From Halomonas rhizosphaerae (lineage in GTDB: Bacteria; Pseudomonadota; Gammaproteobacteria; Pseudomonadales; Halomonadaceae), in assembly GCF_030010555.1 (NCBI RefSeq), contig NZ_JASCQP010000021.1, positions 62,001-126,000 on the forward strand: a stretch of 64,000 nt of DNA, in the 5' to 3' direction. The position numbers and the translations under genes are program-made. The notes below the pieces were generated by a model that searched no databases, was not told the origin of the DNA, and saw only the letters and a program-made list of their open reading frames with translations. This document shows, one piece after another, positions 4,065-44,179 of this stretch; the stretch's first letter is position 1, and each line of letters opens with the position of its first letter.

Positions 4065-5057
4065 TCAACCCTTCACCGCCCGATAGACCCGGAAGCGCCG
4101 GTCGTCGGCCAGGACCTCGAAGGCGCCGAAGGCGCGCTCCAGCAGGTCCGGATAGGGCAGGAAGGCGTTGGCCACCAGGATCAGCTGGCCGCCGGGGTGC
4201 AGGTGGTCGGGGGCCTCGAGGATCAACCGCCCCGCGGGGCCATAGTCGATCGCCCGCTCCTGGTGGAAGGGCGGGTTACTGACGATGGCATCGAAGCGTC
4301 GCTCCCCCAGCGCCGTGTAGACATCGCTCGCCAGGACCTCGCCCTCGAGGTCGTTGGCTGCCAGGGTGCGTCGGGTCGCCTCCACCGCGAAGTGGCCCAC
4401 ATCCACTGCCGTGACCCGCGCCCCATGCCGGGCCAGCCAGGCCGCCAGGATGCCGTCGCCGCAGCCCACGTCGAGAACATCATGCTGCGTCGCCGGGAGA
4501 AAAGCAGGCAACGTCTCCAGCAGCAGCCGGGTACCATCATCCAGCTTGCCGTGGCCGAACACACCCGGATGGCTGACCAGCCGAATGCTTTCTGCCTCGA
4601 AGGTGGTCCAGGCATCGTCCGGGTCGATGCCCACCCGGTCCAGGCGGGTCGCATAGAGCCCGCAGCGCCGTGCGCTGTCCACCTTGCGACAGCCCAGCCC
4701 CAGGGCCGCCAGCGCCTTGAGAACCCGCTTGATGCCGCCCTGGTTCTCGCCCACCAGCTGCAGCGGGGTACCCGGCGGCAGGTGGGCACATAGCCACAGC
4801 AGCCACCACTCGCCCAGGGCGTGGCTCTTGGGCCAGAACAGCACCGCCCCCGGCGGGGCCGGTATCCCACCCTCGAAGGGCGAATACGCCGCCCTCCCCC
4901 GCAACCGCCAGGCCGCGAGAATGCCCTGGTCGGCGGAGAGCAGGCTCCTCTCCCCGGCTTCCAGCCAGGCGTCCCTGGGTGGCGCAACCCACAGCCAGCC
5001 GCAGTAGTCTGCATCCTGGCGCTCCAGCAGCTCGCAGACGGGGGTCTCGGCACTCAT
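4065..5057 (-). CDS. rsmC: 16S rRNA guanine-N2 methyltransferase (G1207)
   Basis: This 330-residue protein has the RsmC layout: an inactive N-terminal methyltransferase-like domain and a catalytic C-terminal domain. The latter carries LDVGCGDG (SAM site, about residue 195) and SNPPFH, the N-P-P-F motif of base-amino N-methyltransferases. It methylates G1207 of 16S rRNA in the small subunit. The ATG at 5055-5057 has GAGGAG upstream and overlaps the cmoM stop by 4 nt, so the two are coupled. RsmC and its paralogue RlmG look alike; the order after cmoM and the length favour RsmC. Confidence 0.87.
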   Translation of the reverse strand: MSAETPVCELLERQDADYCGWLWVAPPRDAWLEAGERSLLSADQGILAAWRLRGRAAYSPFEGGIPAPPGAVLFWPKSHALGEWWLLWLCAHLPPGTPLQLVGENQGGIKRVLKALAALGLGCRKVDSARRCGLYATRLDRVGIDPDDAWTTFEAESIRLVSHPGVFGHGKLDDGTRLLLETLPAFLPATQHDVLDVGCGDGILAAWLARHGARVTAVDVGHFAVEATRRTLAANDLEGEVLASDVYTALGERRFDAIVSNPPFHQERAIDYGPAGRLILEAPDHLHPGGQLILVANAFLPYPDLLERAFGAFEVLADDRRFRVYRAVKG

Positions 5058-12940: not shown

Positions 12941-14548
12941 ATGCAATTCGATGCGCGTTATTACCCCAGTCCCTCCCGTCGCATGACGACGTTCGGCCGC
13001 CGCGGCATGGTCGCCACCTCACAGGCCCTCGGCGCCGAGGCGGGCATGCAGATCCTGCGCCAGGGGGGCAATGCCGTGGATGCAGCCATCGCCACCGCCG
13101 CGGCGCTCACCGTGGTGGAGCCAACCTCCAACGGGCTGGGCAGCGACGCCTTTGCCATCGTCTGGATGAATGGTGAGCTGCATGGCCTGAACGCCAGTGG
13201 CCCTGCGCCACAGGCTGCCACCATCGAGGCCGTCAAGGCACTGGGTCACGAGGCGGTGCCCGAGCACGGCCTGATTCCCGTGACCGTTCCCGGCGCCCCT
13301 GCCGCCTGGGCCACGCTGTCCGAGCGCTTCGGTCGACTGCCCTTCGCCGACCTGCTGGCCCCGGCCATTACCCTGGCAGAGGAAGGCTTCCCGGTCTCGC
13401 CGTTGATCAATCAGCTGTGGGAGGAGGCCTTCGATACCTATAGCCGCTACGATGACGAGGCCTTCCAGCCCTGGTTCGGGACCTTCGCGCCAGGAGGCCA
13501 TGCGCCACGCCCCGGCGAGATGTGGTCCTCCCCGGATCATGCGCACAGCCTGCGCCTGATCGCTGAGACCCGCGCCCGAGCCTTCTATGACGGCGAGCTG
13601 GCCGACCGCATCGATGCCTTCTTCCGAGAGCACGGCGGACTGCTGCGCCGCGAGGATCTCGCCGCCTTCACACCGGAGTGGGTGGAACCGATCAGCACCC
13701 GCTACCGCGATCACGAGATCTGGGAAATCCCGCCCAACGGCTGTGGCCTGATCGCCCTTCAGGCCCTCGGCATGCTGGAACACCTCGGTGAAGAAGCACG
13801 GGATCCGGTCGAGACACTCCATCGACGCATCGAAGCCACCAAACTGGCCTATGTGGACGGGCTGCACCACATCACCGACGGTGATGCCATGCGGCCGAGC
13901 GTCGAGCAGATGCTGGCCGACCCGTATCTCAAGGGGCGTGCCGCCATGATCGGCGAGCAGGCGCTGGATCCGGTGCATGGCAACCCCATCACCGGCGGCA
14001 CCGTCTATCTCGCCACGGCGGACGCGGAGGGCAACATGGTCTCCTTCATCCAGAGCAACTTCAAAGGCTTCGGCTCCGGCATCGTGATCCCCGGCACGGG
14101 CATCAGCCTCCAGAACCGCGGCTGGTCGTTCAAGCTAGATGAGAGTCACGCCAACGCCCTGGCCCCCGGCAAGCGCACCTATCACACCATCATTCCCGGC
14201 TTCATCACCCGCAACGGCCAGGCCGTCGGTCCGTTCGGCGTCATGGGGGGCTTCATGCAACCCCAGGGCCACGTCCAGGTGATCACCGGCATGCTCGACG
14301 ACGCCCTTAACCCGCAGGCCGCGCTGGACATGCCACGCTGGAAGTGGACGAAAGGACGCACCGTCGAGGTCGAGCCCCACTTCCCCGACCACCTGGCCCA
14401 GGCGCTTGCACGACGCGGTCATCACATCGTCAAGCTGGCGGATTCCGTGAGTTTCGGTCGTGGGCAGATCATTGTGCGCGACGCGGAAACCGGCGTGCTG
14501 TGCGGGGGCACCGAGCCCCGCACCGACGCCGCGGTACTGCCCTGGTAA
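12941..14548 (+). CDS. Gamma-glutamyltransferase family Ntn-hydrolase (YwrD/HpxW-like)
   Basis: This 535-residue protein has no signal peptide, so it is expected in the cytoplasm, unlike periplasmic GGT. It has GGNAVDAAIATAAALTVVEPTSNGLGSDAFA near the N-terminus and the self-processing site ITGGTVYLATADAEGNMVS, where Thr354 would become the N-terminal nucleophile of the small subunit. The C-terminal part has FGVMGGFMQPQGHVQV and EPRTDAAVLPW. The family includes glutathione hydrolases and oxamate amidohydrolase. The adjacent transporter genes suggest it cleaves an imported amide or gamma-glutamyl compound. This is inference; the exact substrate is unknown. Confidence 0.85.
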   Translation: MQFDARYYPSPSRRMTTFGRRGMVATSQALGAEAGMQILRQGGNAVDAAIATAAALTVVEPTSNGLGSDAFAIVWMNGELHGLNASGPAPQAATIEAVKALGHEAVPEHGLIPVTVPGAPAAWATLSERFGRLPFADLLAPAITLAEEGFPVSPLINQLWEEAFDTYSRYDDEAFQPWFGTFAPGGHAPRPGEMWSSPDHAHSLRLIAETRARAFYDGELADRIDAFFREHGGLLRREDLAAFTPEWVEPISTRYRDHEIWEIPPNGCGLIALQALGMLEHLGEEARDPVETLHRRIEATKLAYVDGLHHITDGDAMRPSVEQMLADPYLKGRAAMIGEQALDPVHGNPITGGTVYLATADAEGNMVSFIQSNFKGFGSGIVIPGTGISLQNRGWSFKLDESHANALAPGKRTYHTIIPGFITRNGQAVGPFGVMGGFMQPQGHVQVITGMLDDALNPQAALDMPRWKWTKGRTVEVEPHFPDHLAQALARRGHHIVKLADSVSFGRGQIIVRDAETGVLCGGTEPRTDAAVLPW

Positions 14549-14618
14549 CTCCCCGGGCAGGCAGCCGGCTGGAAGGCGCTTCACGGCCGGCCAAGCAATC
14601 ACGATGGCAAGGAGATGC

Positions 14619-14890
14619 TCCTCCATCGCCTTCGGTGAGCGCTGCCGGAAGGCCGGTGTTCGGCCCTCGATGGGGTCTGTCGGGGATTGTTACGATGACT
14701 CGATGGCCGAGAGCGTCTTTGCCACTCTGGAATGCGAGTTGCTCGACAGGAAACGGTTCGCCACGCCGGCGGAGGCGAAGCGGACGGTCTTCGCGTTCAT
14801 CGAGGGATGGCACAACCCACATCGCCGACACTCGGCGATTGGCTATGCCAGTCCCTCCGCTTCAAGCGACTACAGGCGGCAGCCTACGTC
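14619..14890 (+). pseudogene. IS3 family transposase (OrfB) C-terminal remnant
   Basis: In one frame this region encodes the end of an IS3 OrfB integrase: AFGERCRKAGVRPSMGSVGDC, YDDSMAESVFATLECELLDRKRF and EGWHNPHRRHSAIGYASP. The glutamate of ...AES.FATLE.E is the last residue of the DDE triad. No upstream DD part and no OrfA are present, and the GGT gene ends only 70 bp before it, so it is a truncated mobile-element relic. It marks the left side of the accessory LigD patch. A terminal repeat could not be identified with certainty; the GC-rich stretch near 14900-14925 is a candidate end. Confidence 0.88.
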
Positions 14891-14935
14891 CGAAACCGCG
14901 CAACGTCCGCTGACTCGGGGAACGCCAACGCTCAG

Positions 14936-15517
14936 TTGGAGGAGTATAACGACATACGGGACTTCCGAAAGCGTCCGGCACCCACCGGCGAGGAGGACAA
15001 CGTGGGCAGGAAACGCATCTTCGTCATCCACAAGCACGACGCCAGCCAGCTGCACTACGACTTTCGCCTTCGCATCGGCGATGTCCTGGCCTCCTGGGCC
15101 GTGCCGAAGGGGCTCTCCACCGAAGCCAATGACAAGCGACTGGCGATCCGGGTGGAGGACCACCCGCTCGACTACGCCGACTTCGAGGGCGTGATTCCCG
15201 AGGGCGAATACGGGGCCGGCACGGTCATGGTCTGGGATCAGGGAACCTACGCGCCGATCCTCGACGAAGACGAGAAGAGCATGGAAGACGCGCGCGAGGG
15301 CGGTTCGCTCAAGTTCGAGCTCCACGGCAAGAAACTCAAGGGCGGCTTCGCCATGGCGCGCACAGGAAAGCGCGATGGAAAGGAGCAGTGGGTGATCTTC
15401 AAACTGGACGACGAGCACGCCGACGCACGCCGAAAGCCGACGAGCACCGAGCCGAACTCGGTCAAGACGGGCCGCTCCCTGGAGGAAATCGAAGCGGAGG
15501 AGGGTAAGGATGCATGA
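14936..15517 (+). CDS. LigD-type 3'-phosphoesterase (PE) domain protein
   Basis: This is a stand-alone PE domain of 193 residues from a TTG start (LEEYNDIRDF, matching the family N-terminus LEEYrrkRDF). Starting at the GTG at 15002, which has GAGGAGG upstream, would give 171 residues. It has the metal and catalytic motif HKHDASQLHYDFRL, then SWAVPKGLS, VEDHPLDYADFEGVIPEGEYGAGTV and a final EQWVIFKLDD. In bacterial end joining this domain trims 3'-phosphate and ribonucleotide ends. Usually it is fused to the ligase. Here it overlaps the ligase gene by 8 nt, so the parts are probably made together. The IS remnant lies immediately upstream. Confidence 0.88.
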   Translation: MEEYNDIRDFRKRPAPTGEEDNVGRKRIFVIHKHDASQLHYDFRLRIGDVLASWAVPKGLSTEANDKRLAIRVEDHPLDYADFEGVIPEGEYGAGTVMVWDQGTYAPILDEDEKSMEDAREGGSLKFELHGKKLKGGFAMARTGKRDGKEQWVIFKLDDEHADARRKPTSTEPNSVKTGRSLEEIEAEEGKDA

Positions 15518-16511
15518 TGCCCTGGCAGCCCTTCCGGCGGAAGCGCGCTCGAAGCTGAAGAGGGCACCGCAGCCCGGCTTCGTCGAGCCGATGAAGGCGA
15601 CGCTGGTGCACGAGCCTTTTTCCGACCCCGACTGGATCTACGAGCGCAAGCTCGACGGCGAGCGCTGCCTACTGCACAAGAAGGGGCGCACAGTGACGCT
15701 CTACTCCCGGAACGAGAAGAAGAAAAACAGTACTTACCCCGAGATCGCGGAAGCGGTGGGCAGCCTCGACGGGAGTTGCATCCTCGATTCGGAAATCGTG
15801 ACCTTCGACGGGAAGGTGACCAGTTTCAAGCGACTGCAGAAGCGCATCCACAGAAAGGCGCCCGGTGACGACATCCTCAGGGAATGCCCGGTCTACGCCT
15901 ACGCCTTCGATATCCTCTACCTAGACGGCTACGACCTGACCGACCTCCCCCTGCGGGAACGCAAGAAGGTCCTGCGAAGGGCGTTCGAGTGGGCGTCGCC
16001 CCTGCGCGTTCTGCCGTACCGTAACGCGGAGGGAGAGGCCTATCTCAAGGAGGCATCGAAGAAGGGCTGGGAAGGCCTGATCGCGAAGGATGCCCGGTCC
16101 TCCTACGTGCACAGGCGCTCCAGGCAGTGGTTGAAGTTCAAGTGCGGCCACCGCCAGGAAATGGTGATCGCCGGCTACACGGAGCCGAAAGGCGAGCGGG
16201 TCGGCTTCGGCGCGCTGCTGCTCGGTTACTACGAGGATGGCGAGCTTCGCTACGCGGGCCGCGTGGGCACCGGCTTCGACGATGCGTTTCTGACATCCTT
16301 TCACAAGACGATGCAGCGCGAGGAGCGCGATACGTCGCCCTATGCCGATGACATGGAGGAGGACGCTGACATCCACTGGATCGAGCCAAGGTTCGTCGGC
16401 GAGGTGGGCTTCACGGAATGGACGCAGGATGGCTGTCTCCGGCATCCGCGCTTCCTCGGCCTGCGCGACGACAAGGATCCCCAGGAGGTCAGGAGGGAGA
16501 GCGCCCAATGA
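15510..16511 (+). CDS. ligD: ATP-dependent DNA ligase (LigD ligase domain)
   Basis: This 333-residue ATP-dependent ligase has the nucleotidyl-transfer motif YERKLDGER with Lys47 as the adenylated residue. Further motifs are ILDSEIVTFDG, YAFDILYLDGYDL, EGLIAKDARSSY and WLKFKCGHRQEMVIAGYTEPKGER. The OB-fold part, FVGEVGFTEWTQDGCLRHPRFLGLRDDKDP, completes it. It would seal double-strand breaks in non-homologous end joining, normally with Ku. It is one piece of a LigD that is usually fused, here with neither PE nor POL attached. It overlaps PE by 8 nt and POL by 4 nt. No ku gene occurs in the window. Confidence 0.9.
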   Translation: MHDALAALPAEARSKLKRAPQPGFVEPMKATLVHEPFSDPDWIYERKLDGERCLLHKKGRTVTLYSRNEKKKNSTYPEIAEAVGSLDGSCILDSEIVTFDGKVTSFKRLQKRIHRKAPGDDILRECPVYAYAFDILYLDGYDLTDLPLRERKKVLRRAFEWASPLRVLPYRNAEGEAYLKEASKKGWEGLIAKDARSSYVHRRSRQWLKFKCGHRQEMVIAGYTEPKGERVGFGALLLGYYEDGELRYAGRVGTGFDDAFLTSFHKTMQREERDTSPYADDMEEDADIHWIEPRFVGEVGFTEWTQDGCLRHPRFLGLRDDKDPQEVRRESAQ

Positions 16512-17395
16512 AACCCAACGAGATCGAGATATCACATCACGACAAGGTGCTGTTCCCCGACACGGGCATCACCAAGCGTGAGCTCGCCGATTATTACGCG
16601 CGAATCGCGCAGCGGTTGTTGCTTTATGCAAAGGGACGCCCGCTGACGCTGCGTGCGTTTCCGGAAGGCATCGGCGAGGAGGGATTCTTCAATAAGCATG
16701 CGCCCGACCATTTTCCGGACTTCATCAGGCGTATCGAGGTGCCCACCCGCGACGCCGGTAGAGAGGCCGCGCTCATGTCCAGTGCCGACGAGGCGGCGGA
16801 CCTGGTGTACTTCGCCGGGCAAAACGTGATCGAGATCCACGCGGCACTCTCGACGGAGGCGGACCTCGAGAAGCCTGACCAGCTCATTGTCGACTTCGAT
16901 CCGTCCGACGACGATTTCGACAAGGTGCGGAGGGTGGCCCTGGGATTCTGCGAGTTGCTTGATTCCTTGGCGCTTAACGCCTTCTGGAAGACGACGGGCT
17001 CGAGGGGGTTTCACGCCCATATTCCGATTCGCCCCGAACGGGACTTCAGCACGGTCAAGGGTTGGGCCAAGGCCCTCGCCCGCAAGCTGCACGACGAGAT
17101 GCCCGCGGAAACCACGCTGGAACAGCGTAAGGACAAGCGGGGCGACAGGGTCTTCATCGACGTGCTGCGCAACGACTACGGGCAGACGGCGGTCCTGCCC
17201 TATTCGGTGCGCGCCAGGGAAGGCGCCCCGGTCGCGATGCCGATCCGCGCAGACGAGCTGGAAGACGGCGATCTCCTGCCGGACCGCTATACCCTGAAGA
17301 ACGTCTTCCAGCGCCTCGGCCAGATCGAGGATCCCTGGCGACACTTCAAGCGCCGACGCATCGGGGCGAAGCGGTTGGCGGAGGCTGTCAGCTGA
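16508..17395 (+). CDS. LigD polymerase/primase-like (POL) domain protein
   Basis: This 295-residue protein is the archaeo-eukaryotic primase-type POL domain of LigD. It has LIVDFDPSDDDFDKVR, carrying the paired catalytic aspartates, GSRGFHAHIPIRPERDF, and VFIDVLRNDYGQTAVLPYSVRAREGAPVAMPI with the third Asp in IDVLRN. It would add nucleotides at broken ends before ligation. The ATG at 16508 overlaps the ligase stop (ATGA) and follows a GGAGGGAGAG site, so the three genes form a coupled PE-LIG-POL operon. Length matches a free POL domain. Confidence 0.9.
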   Translation: MKPNEIEISHHDKVLFPDTGITKRELADYYARIAQRLLLYAKGRPLTLRAFPEGIGEEGFFNKHAPDHFPDFIRRIEVPTRDAGREAALMSSADEAADLVYFAGQNVIEIHAALSTEADLEKPDQLIVDFDPSDDDFDKVRRVALGFCELLDSLALNAFWKTTGSRGFHAHIPIRPERDFSTVKGWAKALARKLHDEMPAETTLEQRKDKRGDRVFIDVLRNDYGQTAVLPYSVRAREGAPVAMPIRADELEDGDLLPDRYTLKNVFQRLGQIEDPWRHFKRRRIGAKRLAEAVS

Positions 17396-17420
17396 GGAGA
17401 AGCGGGGTGGGTGGCCGGCC

Positions 17421-17925
17421 TCAGGCTTCCCAGCCCTCGCGCACATGGAATAGTGAGAGCTGGCCGCGCGTCTCCCAATGGTGGGCCCAGCGCAGGTCGC
17501 CCGAAAGCTCCAGACCTATAGAGGGTGACGTCGACATTGCGGTAGACACTGACGCCATCCAACACTCGCGAAAGACATAGTCGTCGACGCACAGTCGGCG
17601 ACGGCCGCTACCTCGAGGCTACCACTGGCCAGACGCCGCTCCAGCCTCAGGTCCAGCTAATGGTGCACCTCGGGGTTGAGACCAGGATTGCCCACCGTCA
17701 CCCGGTCGAAGCAGTGCAGCGGCACATAGGCGGTGGGTGGGTCCATACGGTTGGGACAGCCGCCGAAGACATACCCCCCATCCACCAGGATATTCAGCGC
17801 ATTGCCCTGCTGGCCGCGAATCACCGGATCGAGGCCGTGACCGCCCATGCGTAACGCCTCGATGCCGTTGATCCGGCGCAGCCAGTCGCCGGCAGGCGAC
17901 GAAGGATCGGTGTGGTCATGGTCCC
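17421..17925 (-). pseudogene. TonB-dependent copper receptor (OprC/NosA-like), badly decayed
   Basis: On the minus strand a plug-domain fragment reads GDWLRRINGIEALRMGGHGLDPVIRGQQGN, then ILVDGGYVFGGCPNRMDPPTAY, including the CxxxM pair typical of the OprC copper receptor. It then jumps straight to late barrel sequence (NPGLNPEVHH), so most of the barrel is deleted. A TAG at 17657-17659 replaces the expected Gln codon. LDLRLERRLASGSLEV follows in the same frame. Pieces VDDYVFRE, VSVYRNVDVTLY and LELSGDLRWAHHWETRG follow in other frames, so at least two or three frameshifts are present. The last frame stops at 17421. It is non-functional. Confidence 0.85.
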
Positions 17926-33958: not shown

Positions 33959-34933
33959 TTAGCCCAGCAGATGCTCGACGGCGGCGCGCTCCTCGCGCAG
34001 CTCGTCCTCGGTGGCCTTCATGCGGCCACGGCTGAACTCGTCGACCTCGAGGCCCTGGACGATCTCGTACTTGCCGTTCTTGCAGACGACCGGGTAGGAA
34101 TACATGATGCCGGACTCGACGCCGTAGCTGCCGTCGGCGGGAATGCCCATGCTCACCACCTCATCGGTACCCAGCGCCCAGTCGCGCATGTGGTCGATGG
34201 CCGCGGAGGCCGCCGAGGCCGCGGAGGAGGCACCACGCGCCTTGATGATCGCGGCACCGCGCTGCTGCACGGTGGGGATGAAGTCGTTCTCGTACCAGTC
34301 ACGCTCGACCAGGTCGAAGGCCGGGGTGCCGTCCACCTTGCAGTGGGCCAGGTCGGGATACTGGGTCGCGCTGTGGTTACCCCAGACGATCATCTGCTCG
34401 ACGTCGGTGACGTGCTTGCCGGTCTTCTGGGCCAGCTGGGTCTTGGCGCGGTTGTGGTCCAGGCGCATCATCGCGGTGAACTGGCCCGCATCCAGGTCAG
34501 GCGCGTTGCAGGAGGCGATCAGGGCATTGGTGTTGGCCGGGTTGCCCACCACCAGCACGCGCACGTCGCGGCTGGCGTTGTCGTTGAGCGCCTTGCCCTG
34601 CACGGAGAAGATCGCCGCATTGGCTTCCAGCAGGTCCTTGCGCTCCATGCCCGGTCCGCGCGGACGGGCGCCGACCAGCAGGGCGAAGTCGGCATCCTTG
34701 AAGGCGACATTGGCATCGTCGGTGGCGACGATGTCCTGGAGCAGCGGGAAGGCACAGTCGTTGAGCTCCATCACCACGCCGTTGAGGGCGTCCATGGCCG
34801 GCGGAATCTCCAGCAGCTGCAGGATGACCGGCTGGTCCTTGCCCAGCATGTCGCCGGAGGCGATGCGGAAGGCGAGCGAGTAGCTGATCTGGCCGGCAGC
34901 GCCGGTGATGGAAATACGGACGGGATCTTTCAT
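33959..34933 (-). CDS. mdh: Malate dehydrogenase (NAD-dependent)
   Basis: This 324-residue LDH/MDH-family enzyme has the Rossmann motif [23 protein letters not shown]. The substrate-binding residues are in [17 protein letters not shown], the cofactor region is [12 protein letters not shown], and the catalytic His is in [14 protein letters not shown]. It converts malate and oxaloacetate in the TCA cycle. [17 protein letters not shown] is the alpha-helical substrate loop. The ATG at 34931-34933 has AAGGAG 6 nt upstream. It ends at the shared terminator opposite the HAD gene. Confidence 0.95.
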
Positions 34934-35183
34934 GGTGGCTCCTTGGGTTTTCAACGCGCGGGTTGTCGCCGTGAGGATGAGCCGGGCCGGCATGCCGCCT
35001 GCCCTGGCCGGAATTCGAACCGCCAAGATGGTATGCCTGCACTGCACAAAACTCAATTCGACCTGCGGCTAGGTCAGGTACCGCCGGCGACACCCCGGCA
35101 CCCCCTGCGCTATGCTGGCAGCCTGTCGACCCGGGCCGCCAGGCCCCGTTCTCGAACGTCGCGCCGCACCAGGGAAGGTCCGC

Positions 35184-36314
35184 ATGCCTCGTCGTCTCCC
35201 CCCGCTCTCCGTCCTGCTCGCCATCGGGCTGGCCTGCCTGCTGCTGATCTGGCTGGCACTCGGGGACATCGAGGGGTTCCGCGATACCCCACCCGAGGGC
35301 GACGAGGCCGAGGGGCCGGCGCTGACCCGGGTCGAGGTGGTGGAGCGCCAGGCACGGGCCCACTCGCCGCGGCTGGTGCTACAGGGCCAGCTCGAGGCCC
35401 ACCGCGAGGTGGAGCTGCGTGCCCGGCAGTCAGGCCGGGTGGAGACGTTGCCCGTCGCCCTGGGCGCGCGGGTCAGCCGGGGCGAGACGCTGCTGGCGTT
35501 GGCCCGCGAGGAGCTTCCCGCCCGGCTCGAGCAGGCCGAGGCCGAACTGGCCCTGGCGCGGGGCGAGCTGGCCGGCGCCGATTCCCTGCGCCGTCGTGAG
35601 CTGATCTCCAATCCCGACTACCTGCGTCTGCAGAGCGGCGTCAGCCGGGCCCTGGCGGAGGTCGCCGCCCTGCGCCGCCAGCTCGAAGACACCCGCCCCG
35701 AGGCGCCCTTCGATGGGGTGCTCGACCGCCTCGACGTGGAGCTCGGCGACCTGGTCCAGGTCGGCGAGGCCTGGGGCCGGCTGGTCGACGACTCGCGCCT
35801 CACGGCCCTCGCCGCGGCCCCCCAGCGGAATGCCCTGTCGCTGGAGCTCGGACTGCCCGCCGAGATCCAGCTGCTCGACGGCACCCGCCTTGCCGGCGAG
35901 CTGAGCCACGTCGCCAGCCGCGCCGACGACAGCACCCGCAGCTTCCCCGTCGAGGCGACGGCGGCCAATCCCGAGGGACGCCGCCTGGCCGGTGCCAGCG
36001 CCACCCTGGTCATCCGCCTGCCCGAGCGCCGGGTACATCGCCTCTCCCCTGCCCTGCTCGAGCTCGATGGCGACGGGCGGCTGGCGGTGAAGCACCTGGA
36101 CGACGACGACCGGGTGCGCCTCACCCCGGTCGAGCTGGTCAGCGCGGATGCCGAAACCGCCCGGGTGGCCGGGCTGCCCGAGCGGATCCGGCTGATCACC
36201 CTGGGCGGCGGCTTCGTCGAGGCCGGCGAGCGGGTGGAGGCCGTCCCCGTCGCGACGGCTACCCCGCAGGCTGGCACGCAGGCCGGCCCGGACGCGCCCG
36301 GGGACGCGCGCTGA
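35184..36314 (+). CDS. RND efflux periplasmic adaptor (membrane-fusion protein)
   Basis: This 376-residue protein has one N-terminal membrane anchor (LSVLLAIGLACLLLIWLAL). A barrel-sandwich/lipoyl half reads LVLQGQLEAHREVELRARQSGRVETLPVALGARVSRGETLLALA. A helical hairpin (about 100-160) and a second half, FDGVLDRLDVELGDLVQVGEAWGRLVD, follow, and then beta-barrel sequence. It links the RND pump to an outer-membrane channel. The ATG at 35184 has GGGAAGG upstream. It is 1 nt before the pump gene. No TolC-type gene is in the window, so the pair likely uses a channel from elsewhere. Confidence 0.9.
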   Translation: MPRRLPPLSVLLAIGLACLLLIWLALGDIEGFRDTPPEGDEAEGPALTRVEVVERQARAHSPRLVLQGQLEAHREVELRARQSGRVETLPVALGARVSRGETLLALAREELPARLEQAEAELALARGELAGADSLRRRELISNPDYLRLQSGVSRALAEVAALRRQLEDTRPEAPFDGVLDRLDVELGDLVQVGEAWGRLVDDSRLTALAAAPQRNALSLELGLPAEIQLLDGTRLAGELSHVASRADDSTRSFPVEATAANPEGRRLAGASATLVIRLPERRVHRLSPALLELDGDGRLAVKHLDDDDRVRLTPVELVSADAETARVAGLPERIRLITLGGGFVEAGERVEAVPVATATPQAGTQAGPDAPGDAR

Positions 36315-36315
36315 C

Positions 36316-39300
36316 ATGCGCACCCTGATCGAGGCGGCGCTGGATCGCTCGCGCACCACCCTGCTGTTGCTGGTCGCGCTGCTGCTGGCGGGGCTCGCCG
36401 CCTGGCAGGCGATCCCCAAGGAGGCCAATCCCGACGTCACCATCCCCATCATCTATGTCTCGATGTCGCTGGAGGGGGTCAGTCCCGAGGACGGCGAACG
36501 CCTGCTGGTGCGACCCATGGAGCAGGAACTGCGCAGCATCGAGGGACTGCGCAAGATGACCGCCCAGGCAAGTGAGAGCCATGCCGCGGTCACCCTGGAG
36601 TTCGATGCCGGCTTCGATCCCGACCAGGCGCTGACCGACGTGCGCGAGAAGGTCGACATCGCCCGCGCCGAGCTGCCCGCCGAGGCCGACGAACCGCGGG
36701 TCACGGAGGTCAACGTGGCGCTCTTTCCGGTGCTTTCCATCGGCCTCTCGGGGCCGCTGGAGGAGAACCGGCGGCTGGCCGTGGCACGCCGCCTTCAGCA
36801 GGAGATCGAGGGCATCCCGGAAGTGCTCGAGGTGGACATCGGTGGCGACCGCGAGGACCTGCTGGAGATCGTCGTCGACCCCCTGGTGCTCGACAGCTAC
36901 GGGGTCGACTTCACCACCCTGTTCAACCTGGTCAGCCGCAACAACCGACTGGTGGCGGCGGGCAGCCTGGACACCGGGACCGGACGCCAGGCGCTCAAGG
37001 TGCCGGGCATCATCGAGCGCCTCGAGGACGTCATGGCGATGCCGGTGAAGATCGACGGGGACCGGGTGGTGACCTTCGGCGACGTGGCCTGGATCCGCCC
37101 CACCTTCAAGGACCCGGAGGGCTTCGCCCGCATCGACGACCAGCCGGCCCTGGTGCTGGAGATCTCCAAGCGCGCCGGTGCCAACATCATCGCCACCGTG
37201 GCGCAAGTGCAGGGGCTGCTCGACGAGGCGGCCGGCCTGATTCCCGACGAGTTGGAGATCACCACCATCCTCGACCAGTCCGAGACCGTGCGCGACATCC
37301 TCTCGGAACTGCTCAACAACGTGGTCACCGCCGTGGTGCTGGTGCTGGTGCTAATCCTGGCCGCCATGGGCCTGCGCTCGGCGCTGATGGTGGGCCTGAC
37401 CATCCCCGGGGCCTTCCTGACCGGCATCCTGCTGATCTGGGCCCTCGGCTACACCCTCAACATCGTGGTGATGTTCGCGCTGATCCTGGTCGCCGGCATG
37501 CTGGTGGACGGCGCCATCGTGGTCAGCGAGCTGGCCGACCGCCACCTGCGCCAGGGCCAGCCGCCCCGGGAGGCCTGGATCCGGGCCGCCACGCGCATGA
37601 GCTGGCCGGTGATCGCCTCCACCGCCACCACCCTGGCGGTCTTCGTGCCGTTGCTGTTCTGGCCGGGCGTGGTGGGCCAGTTCATGAAGTACCTGCCGAT
37701 CACGGTGATCCTCTGCCTGCTGGCGTCGCTGGCCATGGCGCTGGTGTTCCTGCCGACCCTGGGCGGGGTCTTCGGCGTGCGCAGCGCCGGCGCCACCCGG
37801 GATGCCGAGCTGGTCACCGCCGGCGGACGGCTCTACCGGGGCCTGCTGGCCCGCCTGCTCGCCCGGCCCGGCCTCACCCTGCTGGTCACCCTGCTGCTGA
37901 TGGCGCTGATCTATACCGCCTACGCCCGCTTCAACCATGGCGTCGAGTTCTTCCCCAACGTCGAGCCCGACACCGCCCAGGTGCTGGTGCGCTCGCGGGG
38001 CGACTTCTCCGCCGCCGAGACCGATGCGGTGGTGCGACGGGTCGAGGCGCGGCTCGCCGGCATGAGCGAGGTCCAGGCGCTCTATGCGCGCTCCTTCGCC
38101 GTGCCCGACCAGCAGCTCGGCGGCGACGTGGTGGGGGTACTGCAGTTCCAGCTGATCGACTGGCAGCGGCGCCGCCCGGCCAGCGCGATCCTGGCCGAGA
38201 TGGCCGAGCGCACCCGCGATCTGCCGGGTATCCAGCTGGAGTTCCGCGAACAGGAGATGGGGCCGGCCGGCGGCAAGCCCATCGTGCTGGAAATCAGCGC
38301 CGAGGAGCCGGGCCTGGCCGACCAGGCCGTGACCGAACTGCGACGGACCATGACCGAGCTGGGCGGCTTCCGCGACATCGAGGACAATCGCAGCCTGCCC
38401 GGCGTGGAGTGGCGGGTGAAGGTGGACCGCGAGGCTGCCGCCCGCTTCGGCACCGACGTGGCAAGCGTAGGCAGTGCCGTGCAGCTGATCACCACCGGGC
38501 TGCAGGTGGCGAGCTACCGCCCCGCCGGCGTCAACGACGAGGTGGATATCCGGGTGCGCCTGCCGCGGGGGGCCCGCTCGCTGGACCAGCTGGGCCGCCT
38601 GACGCTGAACACCACGCGAGGGCAGGTGCCGATCTCGCACTTCGTCTCGCTGGAGCCCGCCCCCAAGGTGGGTATCCTGCACCGCATCGACGGGCGCCGG
38701 GCCGTCACGCTGGAGGCCGACGTGGAACCGGACCAGAGCGCCGACGAACGGCTGCGGGCACTGCTCGAGGCGGCCAAGGCGCCTCCCGAGGGGGTGATGG
38801 TGAACGTGGCCGGCGAGCAGGAGGACCAGCAGGAGGCGATGCGCTTCCTGGCCACGGCCTTCCTGGTGGCGATCTGCCTGATGGCGCTGATCCTGGTCAC
38901 CCAGTTCAACAGCCTCTACCAGGCGGCGCTGGTGCTCTCCGCCATCGTCTTCTCCACCGCCGGCGTGCTGCTCGGCCTGCTCGCCAATGCCCAGCCCTTC
39001 GGCATCGTCATGGTGGGCATGGGCATCATCGCCCTGGCGGGCATCGTGGTGAACAACAACATCGTGCTGATCGACACTTACAACCAGCTGCGCGGTGACG
39101 GGCTCGCTCCCGGCGAGGCGGCCCTCGAGGCCGGCGGCCTGCGCCTGCGCCCGGTGCTGCTCACCGCCGTGACCACGGTGCTGGGCCTCGCGCCCATGGT
39201 GCTGGGCGTCAACGTCGACCTGATCACCCCGAGCCTGGGGCTGGGCGCCCCCTCGACCCAGTGGTGGACCCAGCTCTCCAGCGCCATCGCCGGCGGCCTG

Positions 39301-39378
39301 ACCTTCGCCACCGGCCTGACCCTGCTGCTCACGCCCTGCATGCTGGTGCTTGGCGCGCGACTGGACCGCCGGCTCTAG
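36316..39378 (+). CDS. RND efflux pump inner-membrane transporter
   Basis: This 1020-residue AcrB-like transporter has 12 predicted helices and two large periplasmic loops (about 35-330 and 560-860). The proton-relay helix 4 reads GMLVDGAIVVSELADRHL: Asp398 is present but the second Asp of the usual D-D pair is Gly399, as in some heavy-metal and divergent RND pumps. TM10 has GIVVNNNIVLIDTYNQL. The signature VRPMEQELRSIEGLRKM is in porter domain 1. It would expel organic molecules powered by protons. The neighbour adaptor is coupled. The substrate is unknown. Confidence 0.92.
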   Translation: MRTLIEAALDRSRTTLLLLVALLLAGLAAWQAIPKEANPDVTIPIIYVSMSLEGVSPEDGERLLVRPMEQELRSIEGLRKMTAQASESHAAVTLEFDAGFDPDQALTDVREKVDIARAELPAEADEPRVTEVNVALFPVLSIGLSGPLEENRRLAVARRLQQEIEGIPEVLEVDIGGDREDLLEIVVDPLVLDSYGVDFTTLFNLVSRNNRLVAAGSLDTGTGRQALKVPGIIERLEDVMAMPVKIDGDRVVTFGDVAWIRPTFKDPEGFARIDDQPALVLEISKRAGANIIATVAQVQGLLDEAAGLIPDELEITTILDQSETVRDILSELLNNVVTAVVLVLVLILAAMGLRSALMVGLTIPGAFLTGILLIWALGYTLNIVVMFALILVAGMLVDGAIVVSELADRHLRQGQPPREAWIRAATRMSWPVIASTATTLAVFVPLLFWPGVVGQFMKYLPITVILCLLASLAMALVFLPTLGGVFGVRSAGATRDAELVTAGGRLYRGLLARLLARPGLTLLVTLLLMALIYTAYARFNHGVEFFPNVEPDTAQVLVRSRGDFSAAETDAVVRRVEARLAGMSEVQALYARSFAVPDQQLGGDVVGVLQFQLIDWQRRRPASAILAEMAERTRDLPGIQLEFREQEMGPAGGKPIVLEISAEEPGLADQAVTELRRTMTELGGFRDIEDNRSLPGVEWRVKVDREAAARFGTDVASVGSAVQLITTGLQVASYRPAGVNDEVDIRVRLPRGARSLDQLGRLTLNTTRGQVPISHFVSLEPAPKVGILHRIDGRRAVTLEADVEPDQSADERLRALLEAAKAPPEGVMVNVAGEQEDQQEAMRFLATAFLVAICLMALILVTQFNSLYQAALVLSAIVFSTAGVLLGLLANAQPFGIVMVGMGIIALAGIVVNNNIVLIDTYNQLRGDGLAPGEAALEAGGLRLRPVLLTAVTTVLGLAPMVLGVNVDLITPSLGLGAPSTQWWTQLSSAIAGGLTFATGLTLLLTPCMLVLGARLDRRL

Positions 39379-39428
39379 GCAGCGCCGTCAGCCTCGCATC
39401 AGGTGGATACGGCACCCGCAACGAGAAC

Positions 39429-39457
39429 GCCCCATCGACCTCGGGAGCCGATGGGGC
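39429..39457. terminator. Hairpin between the RND pump and rsd
   Basis: The 9-bp stem GCCCCATCG (39429-39437) / CGATGGGGC (39449-39457) with an 11-nt loop lies between convergent genes. It likely ends both transcripts, although U-runs are short. Confidence 0.7.
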
Positions 39458-39505
39458 GAATCATGACGATGCGGATCGTGGCTTCGTCTCGAGAGGACGG
39501 TGGGC

Positions 39506-40006
39506 TCAGGCCCGGGAGTCGGCCTCGGCGCGAGTGGCATCCGGCGCATGGGCCGCATGCAGGCGGGCGATCAGCTGGTCCTCGAGGGTGAAGCGTTCGC
39601 TGAGCCCCCGGCTCAGGCGGTCGAGCCAGGCGGGGAGTCGACGCATATGGTGCTGGGCACGGGCGGGACTGTCGTAGTCGCGATCGAAGGAGAGCACCAG
39701 TTCGGTGGACATCTCCAGGCGCTCGAGCAGGCGGTCGGCGAGCTCCAGGGCCTGGTGGTCGTCGAAGGCCTTGGCCTCCTCCCGCAGCTGGGGATAGACC
39801 TCGAAGTGGCCGGCACTGATGTAGTCCATCAGCAGTTCGCCGAAGGTATCGACGCGCTCCGCGCTCACCGCCTCGAGCTCGGCGTCACAGGCCTGCTTCA
39901 GCGCGGCAAAATGGATCAGCAGCTCACGGCGCTCGTGCAGCCAGCGATCGATCAGCTCGTGCACGCCTCCCCAGCGCTCCAGGGCATTCTTGCAGTCTTC
40001 CAGCAT
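39506..40006 (-). CDS. rsd: Rsd/AlgQ anti-sigma-70 factor
   Basis: This 166-residue helical protein matches Rsd/AlgQ: LERWGGVHELIDRWLHERRELLIHF, LLMDYISAGHFEVYPQL and a final ERFTLEDQLI. Rsd binds region 4 of sigma-70 in stationary phase and shifts RNA polymerase to alternative sigma factors; AlgQ also regulates alginate in pseudomonads. The ATG at 40004-40006 has GGGAGG upstream; longer in-frame extensions are not coding. It sits alone, facing the RND operon. Confidence 0.9.
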   Translation of the reverse strand: MLEDCKNALERWGGVHELIDRWLHERRELLIHFAALKQACDAELEAVSAERVDTFGELLMDYISAGHFEVYPQLREEAKAFDDHQALELADRLLERLEMSTELVLSFDRDYDSPARAQHHMRRLPAWLDRLSRGLSERFTLEDQLIARLHAAHAPDATRAEADSRA

Positions 40007-40286
40007 GGGTGCCTCCCTTGCCCGATGCGGCCAGCCACTCGGGGCACTCGACCCGCGAGTTGACAGACTCGCGCCTGCCGGGCCCGGTGTCAATCCCGTT
40101 GCCGCCTCAGCGCGACGTGGCGCTTGAGTCGCCGCGGCTTGCCCGCGAGGATGGCAGGGCGTGCGGTCACCTGTCACCGCTGGGGGAGCGTGGAGAGGTC
40201 ATCGCGGCATTCGTAGTAACGTGTATCTCGGGCAGCTCCGCCCGCGCTGCCGCCATCACACCATCAGGACTCTGGAGGGGACTCCC
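40007..40286. other. 280-bp divergent gap; no gene seen
   Basis: The gap separates rsd from the ABC binding-protein gene. It should hold two promoters, but no clear -35/-10 pair or operator could be picked by eye. No RNA or repeat was recognised. Confidence 0.4.
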
Positions 40287-41429
40287 ATGAACAAGCTGAC
40301 CCGCGCCGGCCTCGGCCTGCTGATGACGACCGCCGTGGCCACGGCTCAGGCCGAGGAGGTCAGGATCGGCATGATCACCACCCTCTCGGGGGGAGGCTCC
40401 CATCTCGGCGTCGATGTCCGCGACGGCTTCATGCTCGCCATCGACCAGGCAGACCGCGGCGACATCGAGGTGCTGATCCAGGACGACGCCCGCCGCCCCG
40501 ACCTGGCCAAGACGCTCTCGAACGAGTTCATGCAGCGCGACGAGGTCGACATCATGACCGGCATCATCTGGTCCAACCTGGCCATGGCCGTGGTGCCCTC
40601 CGTGGTCCGCCAGGGGACCTTCTATCTCTCGCCCAATGCCGGCCCCTCGGCGCTGGCCGGGAAGATGTGCCACGAGAACTACTTCAACGTGGCCTACCAG
40701 AACGACAACCTGCACGGCGCGATGGGCGCCTGGATGCGCGAGCAGGGCTACGAGGCCCCCATCCTGATGGCGCCTAACTATCCCGCGGGCACCGATGCTC
40801 TGGCCGGCTTCAAGCACCTCTACGAGGGTGAGGTCATCGACGAGATCTACACCCAGCTGGGCCAGACCGACTACGCCGCCGAGATCGCCAGGATCCGCGC
40901 CAGCGACGCCGATAGCCTGTTCTTCTTCCTGCCTGGCGGCATGGGCATCTCCTTCATGAAGCAGTGGGAGAACTCGGGGGTGGAGATGCCGGTGTTCGGA
41001 GCGGCCTTCTCGTTAGACGAGACGATCATCAAGGCGGTGGGCAGCGCCGCGATCGGCGCCATGAACACCTCACAGTGGGCCTACGACCTGGAGAACGCGG
41101 CCAACCAGGCCTTCGTCGAGGGCTTCCGTGAGGCCTACGAGCGGACCCCGACCCTCTATGCGGCCCAGGGCTACGACACGGCCCGCCTGATCCTGAGCGC
41201 CCTGGAGAAGGCCCACCCGAGCGACAAGGACGCCTTTCGCGAGGCCCTGCGCGAGGCCGACTTCGACTCGGTGCGCGGCAAGTTCCGTTTCGGTCCGAAC
41301 CACCACCCGATCCAGGACATCCATGTCCGCGAGGTGGTCGAGGGCGAGGACGGCGAGCCGACCAACCGCCTGGTCGGCCTGGCCGTCGAGGACATCCAGG
41401 ACGTCTATGCCGAGCAGTGCCGGATGTGA
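40287..41429 (+). CDS. ABC transporter substrate-binding protein (HAAT/LivJ type)
   Basis: This 380-residue exported protein has signal MNKLTRAGLGLLMTTAVATAQA before EEVRIG. The Peripla_BP_6 fold shows IGMITTLSGGGSHLGVDVRDGFMLAIDQA and MTGIIWSNLAMAVVPSVVRQGTFYLSPNAGPSALAGK. It captures branched-chain amino acids or, in many homologues, aromatic or other carboxylates; the ligand cannot be read here. The ATG has GGAGGGG upstream. It is the first gene of a five-gene operon with two permeases and two ATPases. Confidence 0.9.
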   Translation: MNKLTRAGLGLLMTTAVATAQAEEVRIGMITTLSGGGSHLGVDVRDGFMLAIDQADRGDIEVLIQDDARRPDLAKTLSNEFMQRDEVDIMTGIIWSNLAMAVVPSVVRQGTFYLSPNAGPSALAGKMCHENYFNVAYQNDNLHGAMGAWMREQGYEAPILMAPNYPAGTDALAGFKHLYEGEVIDEIYTQLGQTDYAAEIARIRASDADSLFFFLPGGMGISFMKQWENSGVEMPVFGAAFSLDETIIKAVGSAAIGAMNTSQWAYDLENAANQAFVEGFREAYERTPTLYAAQGYDTARLILSALEKAHPSDKDAFREALREADFDSVRGKFRFGPNHHPIQDIHVREVVEGEDGEPTNRLVGLAVEDIQDVYAEQCRM

Positions 41430-41498
41430 TCGTCGCGATGCCGGGCCGGGCGTGGTCTCGGCACCGCCCCTTCCTTCGTTCCACCAAGGATGCCTGAC

Positions 41499-42419
41499 GT
41501 GTCCGTTACCCTGCTGATCGAGCAACTGATCAACGGCCTGCAGCTCGGTACCATGCTCTTCCTGATGGCCAGTGGCCTGACCCTGGTGTTCGGGGTCATG
41601 GGGCTGATCAACCTGGCCCATGGCTCCTTCTACATGGTCGGGGCCTATGTCACCGCCCTGGCCACCGCCTCGACCGGCTCCTTCCTGCTGGGGCTGGCCG
41701 CCGGCGTACTGGCGGCCGCCGCGGCGGGGGCCATCGTCGAGTTGCTGGTGATCCGCCGTCTCTACCGGCGCCAGCACCTCGACCAGGTGCTGGCCACCTT
41801 CGCGCTGATCCTGATCTTCTCCGAGGGCACCCGCTGGCTGTTCGGCTCCTCGCCGCTGTGGCTCAGCCCGCCCGAGGCGCTGGCCGGGTCGGTGGCCCTG
41901 CCCGGCGGCTCCCGCTATCCCGTCTACCGGCTGGTGATCATCGCCGTGGGCGTGGTCGTTGCTGCCGGCCTCTACCTGCTGATCGCGCATACCCGGCTGG
42001 GCATGCGCATCCGCGCCGGCGAGAGCGACCGCGAGATGATCGGCGCCCTGGGGGTCAACATCCGGCGGCTCTATACCCTGGTGTTCGCCCTGGGCGCCGC
42101 CCTGGCGGGCCTGGCCGGGTCACTGGTGGGCGCCCTGCAGTCGGTGCAGGTGGGCATGGGCGAGCCGGTGCTGATCCTGGCCTTCGTGGTGATCGTGATC
42201 GGCGGCATCGGCTCGATCAAGGGTGCCCTGCTCGGCGCCCTGCTGGTCGGCCTGGTGGATACCCTGGGCCGGGTCTTCCTTCCCGCCCTGTTCGGCCAGT
42301 TCATGGCGCCGTCGGACGCCGCCGGGGCCGGGACAGCCCTGGCCGCCATGCTGATCTACATTCTCATGGCGGTAATTCTGGCCTTCAAGCCGAAAGGACT
42401 CTTTGCCGCCCATGACTAG
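41499..42419 (+). CDS. ABC permease, LivH type
   Basis: This 306-residue inner-membrane permease has about eight helices and the LivH start LLIEQLINGLQLGTMLFLMASGLTLVFGVMGLINLAHGSFYMVGAYV. The EAA-like loop is MIGALGVNIRRLYTLVFALGAALAGLAGSLVG. The GTG at 41499 is preferred as the start because AAGGA lies 8 nt upstream; the ATG at 41490 overlaps that site. It pairs with the LivM-type permease that follows, with which it overlaps by 8 nt. Confidence 0.9.
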   Translation: MSVTLLIEQLINGLQLGTMLFLMASGLTLVFGVMGLINLAHGSFYMVGAYVTALATASTGSFLLGLAAGVLAAAAAGAIVELLVIRRLYRRQHLDQVLATFALILIFSEGTRWLFGSSPLWLSPPEALAGSVALPGGSRYPVYRLVIIAVGVVVAAGLYLLIAHTRLGMRIRAGESDREMIGALGVNIRRLYTLVFALGAALAGLAGSLVGALQSVQVGMGEPVLILAFVVIVIGGIGSIKGALLGALLVGLVDTLGRVFLPALFGQFMAPSDAAGAGTALAAMLIYILMAVILAFKPKGLFAAHD

Positions 42420-43443
42420 GCTCCATCCCACGACCACCCCCGCCGCGGAGCGCCCGGCTGGCACGAACCGCTGGCTGGACCGCGCACACCTGGTGCAAGG
42501 CGGTCTTCTGACGCTGATGCTGCTGGCCCCCGTCGCCGCCCACCTGCTGGGGGAGGTCTACTACGTCAATCTCGCCTCGCGCATTGCCCTGGTGGCCATG
42601 GCCGCGGTGGGACTCAACCTGGCCATCGGCTACGGCGGCATGATCAGCTTCGGCCATGCCGCCTACTTCGGCCTGGGCGGCTACGTGAGCGGCGTCAGCG
42701 CCTACCACGCCTTCGACGGCAGCCTGGTGATGGGCCTGCCCGGCAGCGACGACATGCTGGTGATCTGGCTGGCGGCCGCGCTGCTCTGCGGCCTGCTCGC
42801 CCTGGTGATCGGCGCCATCTCGCTGCGCACCAGCGGGGTCTACTTCATCATGATCACCCTGGCCTTCGCCCAGATGGCCTACTACTTTGCCAACTCGTGG
42901 CCCGACTACGGGGGCGAGGATGGCCTGCCGATCTATCTGCGCAATTCCCTGCCCGGGCTCGACACCAACCACGCCCTGAGCTTCTTCCTGGTCTGCTTCA
43001 CGGGCCTGGTGTTCTCCCTGGCGCTCACCTCGCGACTGATGAAGTCCCGCTTCGGGGCCGCCCTGAGCATGGCGCGGCTCAACGAGACCCGCCTGGCCAC
43101 CGCCGGTATCTCGCCCTTCCCCATCCGCCTGGTAGCCTTCGTCATCTCGGCGATGATCACCGGCCTGGCCGGTGCCCTCTACGCCGACCTGAACGGCTTC
43201 GTCAGTCCCTCCATGCTGAGCTGGCACCTTTCCGGCGAACTGATGGTGATCGTGATCCTAGGCGGGGTCGGGCGCCTCTACGGGCCGCTTGCCGGGGCCA
43301 TCCTCTTCGTGTTGATGGAGACCCTGCTGGGGGGGCTGACCGAATACTGGAAGTTCTTCCTCGGCCTGGTGCTGCTGGGCGTGGTGCTGTTCGCCAGGCA
43401 GGGCGTGATCGGCTGGCTGGCCGGGAGGGAGCGCCATGAGTGA
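42412..43443 (+). CDS. ABC permease, LivM type
   Basis: This 343-residue permease has about ten helices: VAMAAVGLNLAIGYGGMISFGHAAYFGLGGYV and the EAA loop SMARLNETRLATAGISPFPIRLVAFVISAMITGLAGALYADLNGF. The ATG at 42412 overlaps the LivH stop; the TTG at 42403 is an alternative. It forms the channel with LivH. The next ATPase begins inside its 3' end. Confidence 0.9.
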   Translation: MTRLHPTTTPAAERPAGTNRWLDRAHLVQGGLLTLMLLAPVAAHLLGEVYYVNLASRIALVAMAAVGLNLAIGYGGMISFGHAAYFGLGGYVSGVSAYHAFDGSLVMGLPGSDDMLVIWLAAALLCGLLALVIGAISLRTSGVYFIMITLAFAQMAYYFANSWPDYGGEDGLPIYLRNSLPGLDTNHALSFFLVCFTGLVFSLALTSRLMKSRFGAALSMARLNETRLATAGISPFPIRLVAFVISAMITGLAGALYADLNGFVSPSMLSWHLSGELMVIVILGGVGRLYGPLAGAILFVLMETLLGGLTEYWKFFLGLVLLGVVLFARQGVIGWLAGRERHE

Positions 43444-44179
43444 GGCCGTGCTGTCGATGTCCGGCCTGCACAAGCGCTTCGGTGCACTGCAGGCCACCCA
43501 CGACGTGTCGCTGGACCTGAGGGCCGGCGAGATCCATGCCCTGATCGGCCCCAACGGCGCCGGAAAGTCGACGCTGATCGCCCAGATTGCCGGCAGCCTC
43601 AGGCCCGATGCGGGGCAGATCCATCTGGGGCAGCGCGACATCACCGCCCTGGGGGTCGCCCGCCGGGCACGCCTCGGCCTGGGACGGAGCTTCCAGGTCT
43701 CGTGCCTTGCCGAACCGCTCAGCGTGCTGCGCAACGTGATGATCGGCGCCCAGGCGCTGCAGGGCCACAGCTTCCGCTTCTGGCGGCCGGTCAGCCGCGA
43801 TCGCAGTTTGCTCGAACCCGCCTATGAGGCACTTGAGCGCATGCACCTCGCCCACCGTGCCGACACGCCGGTAGCGGCGCTCTCCCATGGCGAGCGCCGC
43901 CAGGTAGAGGTGGCCTGTGCGCTGGTCCTCGAGCCGCGGGCCCTGCTCCTGGACGAGCCCATGGCGGGTCTCGGCCCCGAGGGGTCGGCGCGGCTCACCG
44001 AACTGCTCGAGACGCTGAAACGGGAAGTCCCCATCCTGCTGATCGAACATGACATGGACGCGGTGTTCCGGCTGGCGGATCGCATTTCCGTGCTGGTAGC
44101 GGGCAGCGTCATCGCCCATGGCGACAGCGCGGCCATCCGCCGGGACCCGCGCGTCCGCGATGCCTACCTGGGAGACTGA
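43436..44179 (+). CDS. ABC ATP-binding protein, LivG type
   Basis: This 247-residue ATPase has Walker A GPNGAGKST, a signature region LSHGERRQVEVACAL and Walker B ALLLDEPMAGLGPEG, with switch His in IEHDMDAVF. A long inserted region (RNVMIGAQALQGHSFRFWRPVSRD) is typical of LivG. It overlaps the permease by 8 nt. The two-residue gap to the LivF-type gene supports one operon. Confidence 0.92.
   Translation: MSEAVLSMSGLHKRFGALQATHDVSLDLRAGEIHALIGPNGAGKSTLIAQIAGSLRPDAGQIHLGQRDITALGVARRARLGLGRSFQVSCLAEPLSVLRNVMIGAQALQGHSFRFWRPVSRDRSLLEPAYEALERMHLAHRADTPVAALSHGERRQVEVACALVLEPRALLLDEPMAGLGPEGSARLTELLETLKREVPILLIEHDMDAVFRLADRISVLVAGSVIAHGDSAAIRRDPRVRDAYLGD

Follow-up and report, generated by a model that had tools for sequence, protein, structure and literature searches.

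Separate PE, LIG and POL genes of a stand-alone lineage in a Halomonas genome without a recognisable Ku

In the usual description, bacteria join DNA ends with two proteins, Ku and LigD, the former recruiting and stimulating the latter. What may LigD-type enzymes do when they are encoded by three separate genes in a genome without Ku? This question is raised by a stretch of 64,000 nucleotides from the halophile Halomonas rhizosphaerae (assembly GCF_030010555.1, contig NZ_JASCQP010000021.1, positions 62,001 to 126,000; hereafter the window), in which three consecutive genes on the + strand, each a separate frame, follow one another in the order PE-LIG-POL: a LigD-type 3'-phosphoesterase (PE, 14936-15517, start uncertain), a 333-aa ATP-dependent DNA ligase of the non-homologous end joining (NHEJ) type (LIG, 15510-16511) and a 295-aa LigD-type primase-polymerase (POL, 16508-17395). 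The PE stop lies at 15517, LIG extends from an ATG at 15510 to a TGA at 16511 and POL from an ATG at 16508 to a TGA at 17395, which confirms from the frames the overlaps of 8 nt (15510-15517) and 4 nt (16508-16511) given in a preliminary description of the locus. Shine-Dalgarno-like sites precede LIG (GGAGGAGGG, 15496-15504, +, within the PE tail) and POL (AGGAGGG, 16491-16497, +, within the LIG tail), and the gene overlaps suggest coupled translation of PE, LIG and POL; no sigma-70-like promoter pattern has been matched in 14400-17700, an absence that proves little. The answer argued for below, to which we assign about an even chance, is that the set represents an operon that was acquired horizontally, belongs to the stand-alone (Methanocella Pol) lineage and would be working in a Ku-less cell.

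By family and catalytic residues, as far as these can be read from the sequence, the three products are NHEJ-type (LigD-type) enzymes. Matches above the curated Pfam/NCBIfam cut-offs have been obtained for PE (LigD_N, 147 bits; TIGR02777, 205 bits), LIG (DNA_ligase_A_M, 129 bits; DNA_ligase_A_C, 109 bits; TIGR02779, 281 bits) and POL (LigD_Prim-Pol, 272 bits; TIGR02778, 232 bits), and the three cover successive parts (7-197, 230-550 and 579-855) of the 870-position fused model NF004628. The motifs LHYDFRL, KLDG, DFDPSDDD and IDVLRN, which had been pointed out beforehand, are present. Judged by the catalytic and substrate-binding residues given in PMC8656161, the alignments have shown that PE conserves His42, His48, Asp50, Arg52, His84 and Tyr88 (P. 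aeruginosa PE numbering), that LIG conserves Lys481, Arg486, Arg501, Glu530, Glu613, Arg629, Lys635 and Lys637 (M. tuberculosis numbering, against 1vs0), and that POL conserves Asp137, Asp139, Asp227 and Arg244. In the 5'-phosphate pocket, Lys16 and Lys26 of the M. tuberculosis POL correspond to Lys13 and Lys23 of the window POL, of which Lys23 is invariant and Lys13 nearly invariant among 78 stand-alone POLs. The best PDB sequence match of POL is the Methanocella Pol (5dmu, 246 bits; all others at most 144 bits), and this entry is also the top fold match (Z 39.9, 1.5 A over 287 residues) of an AlphaFold model built from a 78-sequence input with a mean predicted local distance difference test (pLDDT) score of 97.1, an 11-sequence model (pLDDT 52.8) having been discarded. 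The POLs of fused LigDs and Prim-PolC trail in the fold search with Z of 35-38.

Separate genes of this kind recur in other genomes. In G145 and G170, two relatives within the genus, LIG and POL are separate with the same boundaries as in the window and 81-85% identical to it, and G157 carries PE-LIG-POL with an 8-nt PE/LIG overlap at 44-58% identity; PE-POL pairs have been found in seven further genus genomes, one of which (G181) has a stop inside POL, and in G092 PE and POL lie apart on opposite strands. Among 73 loci of other organisms, which are the best 80 of at least 537 confirmed matches minus 7 duplicate Halomonas loci and thus lean towards the query, PE, LIG and POL stand as separate frames in this order in 25; the rest comprise PE-POL (11), LIG-POL (7), POL alone (24), PE-POL fusions (2) and other arrangements (4). 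Only same-strand neighbours have been counted, by which rule L080, with its PE on the other strand, is entered as LIG-POL and L092 as POL. That sequencing errors have broken one fused ligD into three frames, the possibility on which the preliminary description would have foundered, is therefore of negligible probability: nothing beyond the short overlaps speaks for it, and the boundaries shared with G145 and G170, the overlap in G157, the 25 loci with separate frames and the Shine-Dalgarno-like sites at the starts speak against it. With the same breaks in relatives and in other phyla, a frameshift or sequencing artefact has been rejected. In two of the loci, L120 and L123 (the latter from a Dependentiae assembly), a single frame (534 and 538 aa) encodes both PE and POL, with no LIG beside it. 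In three genomes of one genus (G318, G463 and G569, 1.4-1.6 Mb), a short-frame POL of 305-309 bits lies 2-3 kb from Ku, which is possibly a genuine split of a fused-type LigD.

The ancestry of POL separates the window from the fused enzymes of its own family. In an unrooted tree of 98 rows (support given as bootstrap/SH-aLRT, the Shimodaira-Hasegawa-like approximate likelihood ratio test), in which ten fused loci represent the fused group and the interrupted G181 POL and a G207 fragment were left out, the window POL groups with stand-alone POLs and the Methanocella Pol (96/91), and the ten fused LigDs of the family together with P. aeruginosa LigD are set apart by a 100/99 branch. The fused POL of M. 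tuberculosis LigD and Prim-PolC fall outside both groups on long branches; being unrooted, the tree is silent on whether fusion or separation came first in ancient times. That the fused LigD native to the genus was recently split has been rejected, as POL lies on the other side of the 100/99 branch, and the earlier view of a fused LigD split at this locus has to be given up: mapping the splits on a tree has revealed a separate lineage and no origin by splitting here. The stand-alone POLs of the genus occupy three separate positions, namely the window, G145 and G170 joined by Marinobacter and by two Legionella sequences (100/98), G157 and the L051-group relatives G092, G175, G184, G186, G205 and G209 beside a sequence from Aegiribacteria (100/94), and G164 with a Chromatiales sequence (90/94). 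Because of these three positions, stand-alone sets appear from the tree to have reached the genus on about three occasions, none of them with Ku. The window PE sits with a Marinobacter PE at weak support (83), a placement consistent with a joint transfer of PE and POL.

PE is the constant companion of POL in the genus, being present in 12 of 12 genomes with a stand-alone POL (in G186 as a partial profile match), and LIG occurs in 4 of the 12; in six further genus genomes PE is found and no POL exceeds the cut-off. G145 and G170 are homologous to the window only from the PE tail onwards, and their PEs, which lie elsewhere in the genome, belong to two different branches on the tree of that gene. 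Between the window, G145 and G170, LIG and POL show purifying selection, with ratios of nonsynonymous to synonymous substitution rates (dN/dS) of 0.11-0.15 by YN00 and 0.18-0.24 by NG86 (pairs below 60% identity were excluded, and nan values from failed YN00 estimates were disregarded). No plasmid source has been found, the POL relatives in 611 plasmid records all being below 60% identity, and among viral contigs 85 pattern matches have yielded no confirmed relative.

The host genome (4.07 Mb in 46 contigs, 99.99% complete) has given no match to Ku in a profile search, which extends the earlier statement about the window to the whole genome; the search is backed by a control genome and by sister species, where Ku has been found at about 1e-36 to 1e-44. 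A whole-genome search has shown a single POL and a single NHEJ-type LIG and, for POL and LIG together, no fused copy elsewhere, and hence no second ligD-ku locus that would make the set redundant. A second PE exists only as a C-terminal fragment (75 bits; G000 contig C24, L143 at 34000-44000, frame 4559-4852) that is closest to other PEs of the genus. Among 90 genus genomes, a fused-type POL (317-334 bits) has been found in 20 and a short-frame stand-alone POL (232-255 bits) in 12, never both in one genome, with a POL fragment in G207; Ku is present in 18 of the 20 and in none of the 12, and thus in 18 of the 90 overall. The two genus genomes in which a fused LigD stands without Ku have completeness values of 85% and 77%. 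All 18 Ku-positive genus genomes have two Ku matches each, mostly adjoining ligD, with one about 36 kb off in G133. The 151 family genomes include 25 with Ku, all within the 27 that have a fused-type POL; the remaining two, G003 and G091, are nearly complete genomes, which shows that a fused LigD can also occur without Ku. In a class sample of 369 genomes, 35 have a POL above the family cut-off (four weaker ones were left out), and Ku accompanies 22 of 23 genomes with POL in a frame of at least 600 aa and 4 of 12 with a short-frame POL only. The eight Ku-less genomes of the latter kind have POL scores of 232-257 bits, a grouping chosen after the scores had been seen, and the score alone is not decisive, since G293, G381 and G462 combine Ku with a long-frame POL of 229-246 bits. 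On the POL tree Ku status clusters, with 13 and 14 changes where shuffling gives means of 31.5 and 29.1.

In the favoured reading, that of an acquired operon working without Ku, POL itself would bring ends together on short microhomologies by means of its 5'-phosphate pocket and loops, or alternatively bind short gaps, and would add a few ribonucleotides; PE would trim the 3' end to a ligatable form, and LIG would seal, a step that the housekeeping ligase might take over where LIG is missing. POL domains have been described to synapse complementary ends on microhomologies through such a pocket (Lys16, Lys26 and Asn13) and two loops (PMC8656161). Because the pocket lysines are kept and POL has no Loop 3 extension, POL-driven synapsis and fill-in, together with PE trimming and LIG sealing, is slightly preferred, as a prediction, to a purely LigC-like role. 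More tentatively, and with rather less confidence than for the operon itself, a Ku-independent end-repair pathway of POL and PE with LIG as an optional part, in which POL supplies synapsis, may have spread horizontally among Gammaproteobacteria (Halomonas, Marinobacter, Wenzhouxiangella) and some Alphaproteobacteria and be held there by purifying selection without Ku.

The start of PE and the flanks of the module call for a separate account. Directly upstream lies the C-terminal part of an IS3-family transposase (14622-14858, +; NF033516, 77 bits; rve_3, 37.6 bits), residues 55-133 of the frame 14460-15191 matching positions 289-366 of the 369-position NF033516 profile; the 77 bits are a fragment match and lie under the family cut-off of 160. 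A search of the host genome has given no second good IS3 copy and one weak partial match, and the end of the element could not be determined from plasmids, where 15 records at 60-80% identity all cover less than 80% of the query. PE as annotated at 14936 begins with TTG and has no visible Shine-Dalgarno site; towards the IS element, ATGs at 14807 and 14732 offer alternative in-frame starts. In nine PE genes of relatives, the start seven codons above the aligned start is ATG in five and GTG in one, and in the remaining three the alignment begins further inside the gene. The corresponding seven codons of the window PE, which sit beyond the IS3 remnant, are without any start codon. Since the relatives' start codons are absent here and the remnant adjoins, the IS3 remnant has taken the place of the native PE start, and PE may be translated from a replacement start or at a low level; of the PE boundaries first proposed, the stop at 15517 holds and the start at 14936 is uncertain. 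On the other side of the module, and not part of it, an internally deleted TonB-dependent receptor remnant (17458-17893, -) gives two blastn pieces to G170, which are about 1 kb apart there within an intact 674-aa frame, and a Plug match of 20.5 bits, below the cut-off of 23.9. The intact counterpart in G170 (L059:7681-9705) occupies the same place beside LIG-POL. The receptor remnant is real, and the block between the two remnants is, as first suggested, an accessory one with a patchy distribution.

A number of observations weigh against the favoured reading. The window PE lacks its native start and was not among the dN/dS pairs; Gln40 of the P. aeruginosa PE is His in the window PE, a residue reported to be dispensable for catalysis (PMC8656161), and the pocket Asn13 of the M. 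tuberculosis POL is His10 in the window POL. Fisher tests of the Ku association give 4e-7 in the genus (18/20 against 0/12) and 1.6e-4 in the class (22/23 against 4/12), both uncorrected for kinship. Set against the genus baseline of 18/90, the absence of Ku from all 12 stand-alone-POL genomes has a hypergeometric probability of 0.056 and is no strong departure. Ku is moreover present in the four short-frame-only class genomes already counted, and three long-frame genomes with Ku (G459, G470 and G502) also hold a short-frame POL. Of the 73 loci of other organisms, 36 lie in Ku-positive genomes, including the two Legionella loci near the window POL. By locus type the Ku-positive share is 7/7 for LIG-POL, 14/24 for POL alone, 10/25 for PE-LIG-POL and 1/11 for PE-POL, so that Ku status seems to depend on which partner POL has beside it, many of these loci being metagenome assemblies in which the absence of Ku means little. 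Stand-alone sets are therefore without the link to Ku seen for fused LigD, and, because of the hypergeometric value, the data do not show an avoidance of Ku.

Among the other explanations, a Ku-independent excision-repair module resembling LigC/Prim-PolC, in which POL fills gaps with ribonucleotides, PE cleans 3' ends and LIG seals without any joining of double-strand breaks, is considered rather unlikely. It would account for the lack of Ku in the host and in the 12 stand-alone-POL genomes and for the persistence of PE, which heals 3' ends, where LIG is often absent; the LigC complex has been reported to work in base excision repair (PMC5663958), and the fold of POL resembles Prim-PolC (Z 37.8) almost as closely as it does the Methanocella Pol. 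Against this, Prim-PolC stays outside the group of stand-alone POLs and Methanocella Pol on the tree, on a long branch, and the window POL, by its tail length, misses the C-terminal extension with Loop 3 that has been given as the mark of gap-filling Prim-PolC (PMC5663958): 18 residues follow its DPW motif and at most 36 that of the stand-alone POLs (74 of 84 rows, the 10 without the motif being left out), as compared with 48 in 5op0. A recurrent base-excision neighbour has not been recognised in a neighbour analysis that is itself weak.

Equally doubtful is a decaying NHEJ leftover, in which Ku was lost or never acquired and the enzymes drift towards loss. The loss of the native PE start to the IS3 remnant would fit such a course, as would the short PE tail that is all G145 and G170 retain before LIG, the internal stop in G181, the POL fragment in G207, a 28-bit POL piece after PE in G169, the six genus genomes with PE and no POL over the cut-off and the PE fragment in the host; yet the low dN/dS of LIG and POL (0.11-0.15), the conserved catalytic residues, the repeated and separate acquisition of stand-alone sets and the intact-length PEs carried elsewhere in G145 and G170 all run counter to it. 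That end joining proceeds in the ordinary way, with some unrecognised protein binding the ends instead of Ku, appears very improbable. A family search detects only a recognisable Ku, and LigD is usually recruited by Ku (PMC8656161), which leaves room for a substitute; the Ku model is nevertheless sensitive here, as the sister species attest, and clustering of neighbours has given no conserved extra gene across loci. Neither a Ku substitute nor a repair gene has been recognised among these neighbours, whose clusters, blurred by GC-rich shadow frames, consist mainly of such frames and of local genus synteny.

The architecture alone is not new, since operons of separate Lig, Pol and PE genes have been stated to be common (PMC4797286; PMC5663958). 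Methanocella paludicola likewise has separate PE (5dmp), LIG and POL (5dmu) genes, the ligase being operonic (PMC4797286), and supplies the closest solved relatives of the window POL (246 bits, Z 39.9) and PE (165 bits), the latter being almost as near to P. aeruginosa LigD (154 bits); it uses Ku (PMC4797286), which the host genome lacks. In mycobacterial LigC/Prim-PolC (PMC5663958) and Streptomyces ligC-polR (PMC5124664), ligase and polymerase are also separate, and LigC has been shown to act in excision repair without Ku (PMC5663958). A Streptomyces species with ligC-polR and no ku gene at all has been reported (PMC5124664), so a Ku-less stand-alone pair of LIG and POL is already published; the window set differs from these in including PE and in a POL without the Loop 3 extension. 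Among about 6,000 genomes, 619 (10.3%) have been classed as 'LigD only', 90% of them without POL and PE (PMC7719229), and a Ku-less set with all three belongs to the small remainder, which receives no separate treatment in the parts of that source consulted. In the open-licence literature we did not find Ku-less stand-alone PE-LIG-POL sets described as a pathway, nor a description of such a set recurring, around an unvarying core of PE and POL, in genomes without Ku within one genus and one class. Ku, a defining part of NHEJ, was looked for and not found, and the set accordingly falls outside the NHEJ system proper; it may still work like one. Fused LigD with Ku, as in P. aeruginosa and the sister species, shares with the window the domains, their PE-LIG-POL order and the catalytic residues, and differs by its single gene, by a POL across the 100/99 branch and by its Ku. 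Natural PE-POL(-LIG) sets that selection maintains where Ku is missing, with sister species at hand that have a fused LigD and two ku genes, provide a ready comparison that would tell what these enzymes do without Ku and which part is dispensable, and the recurrence of the set makes a Ku-independent function directly testable.

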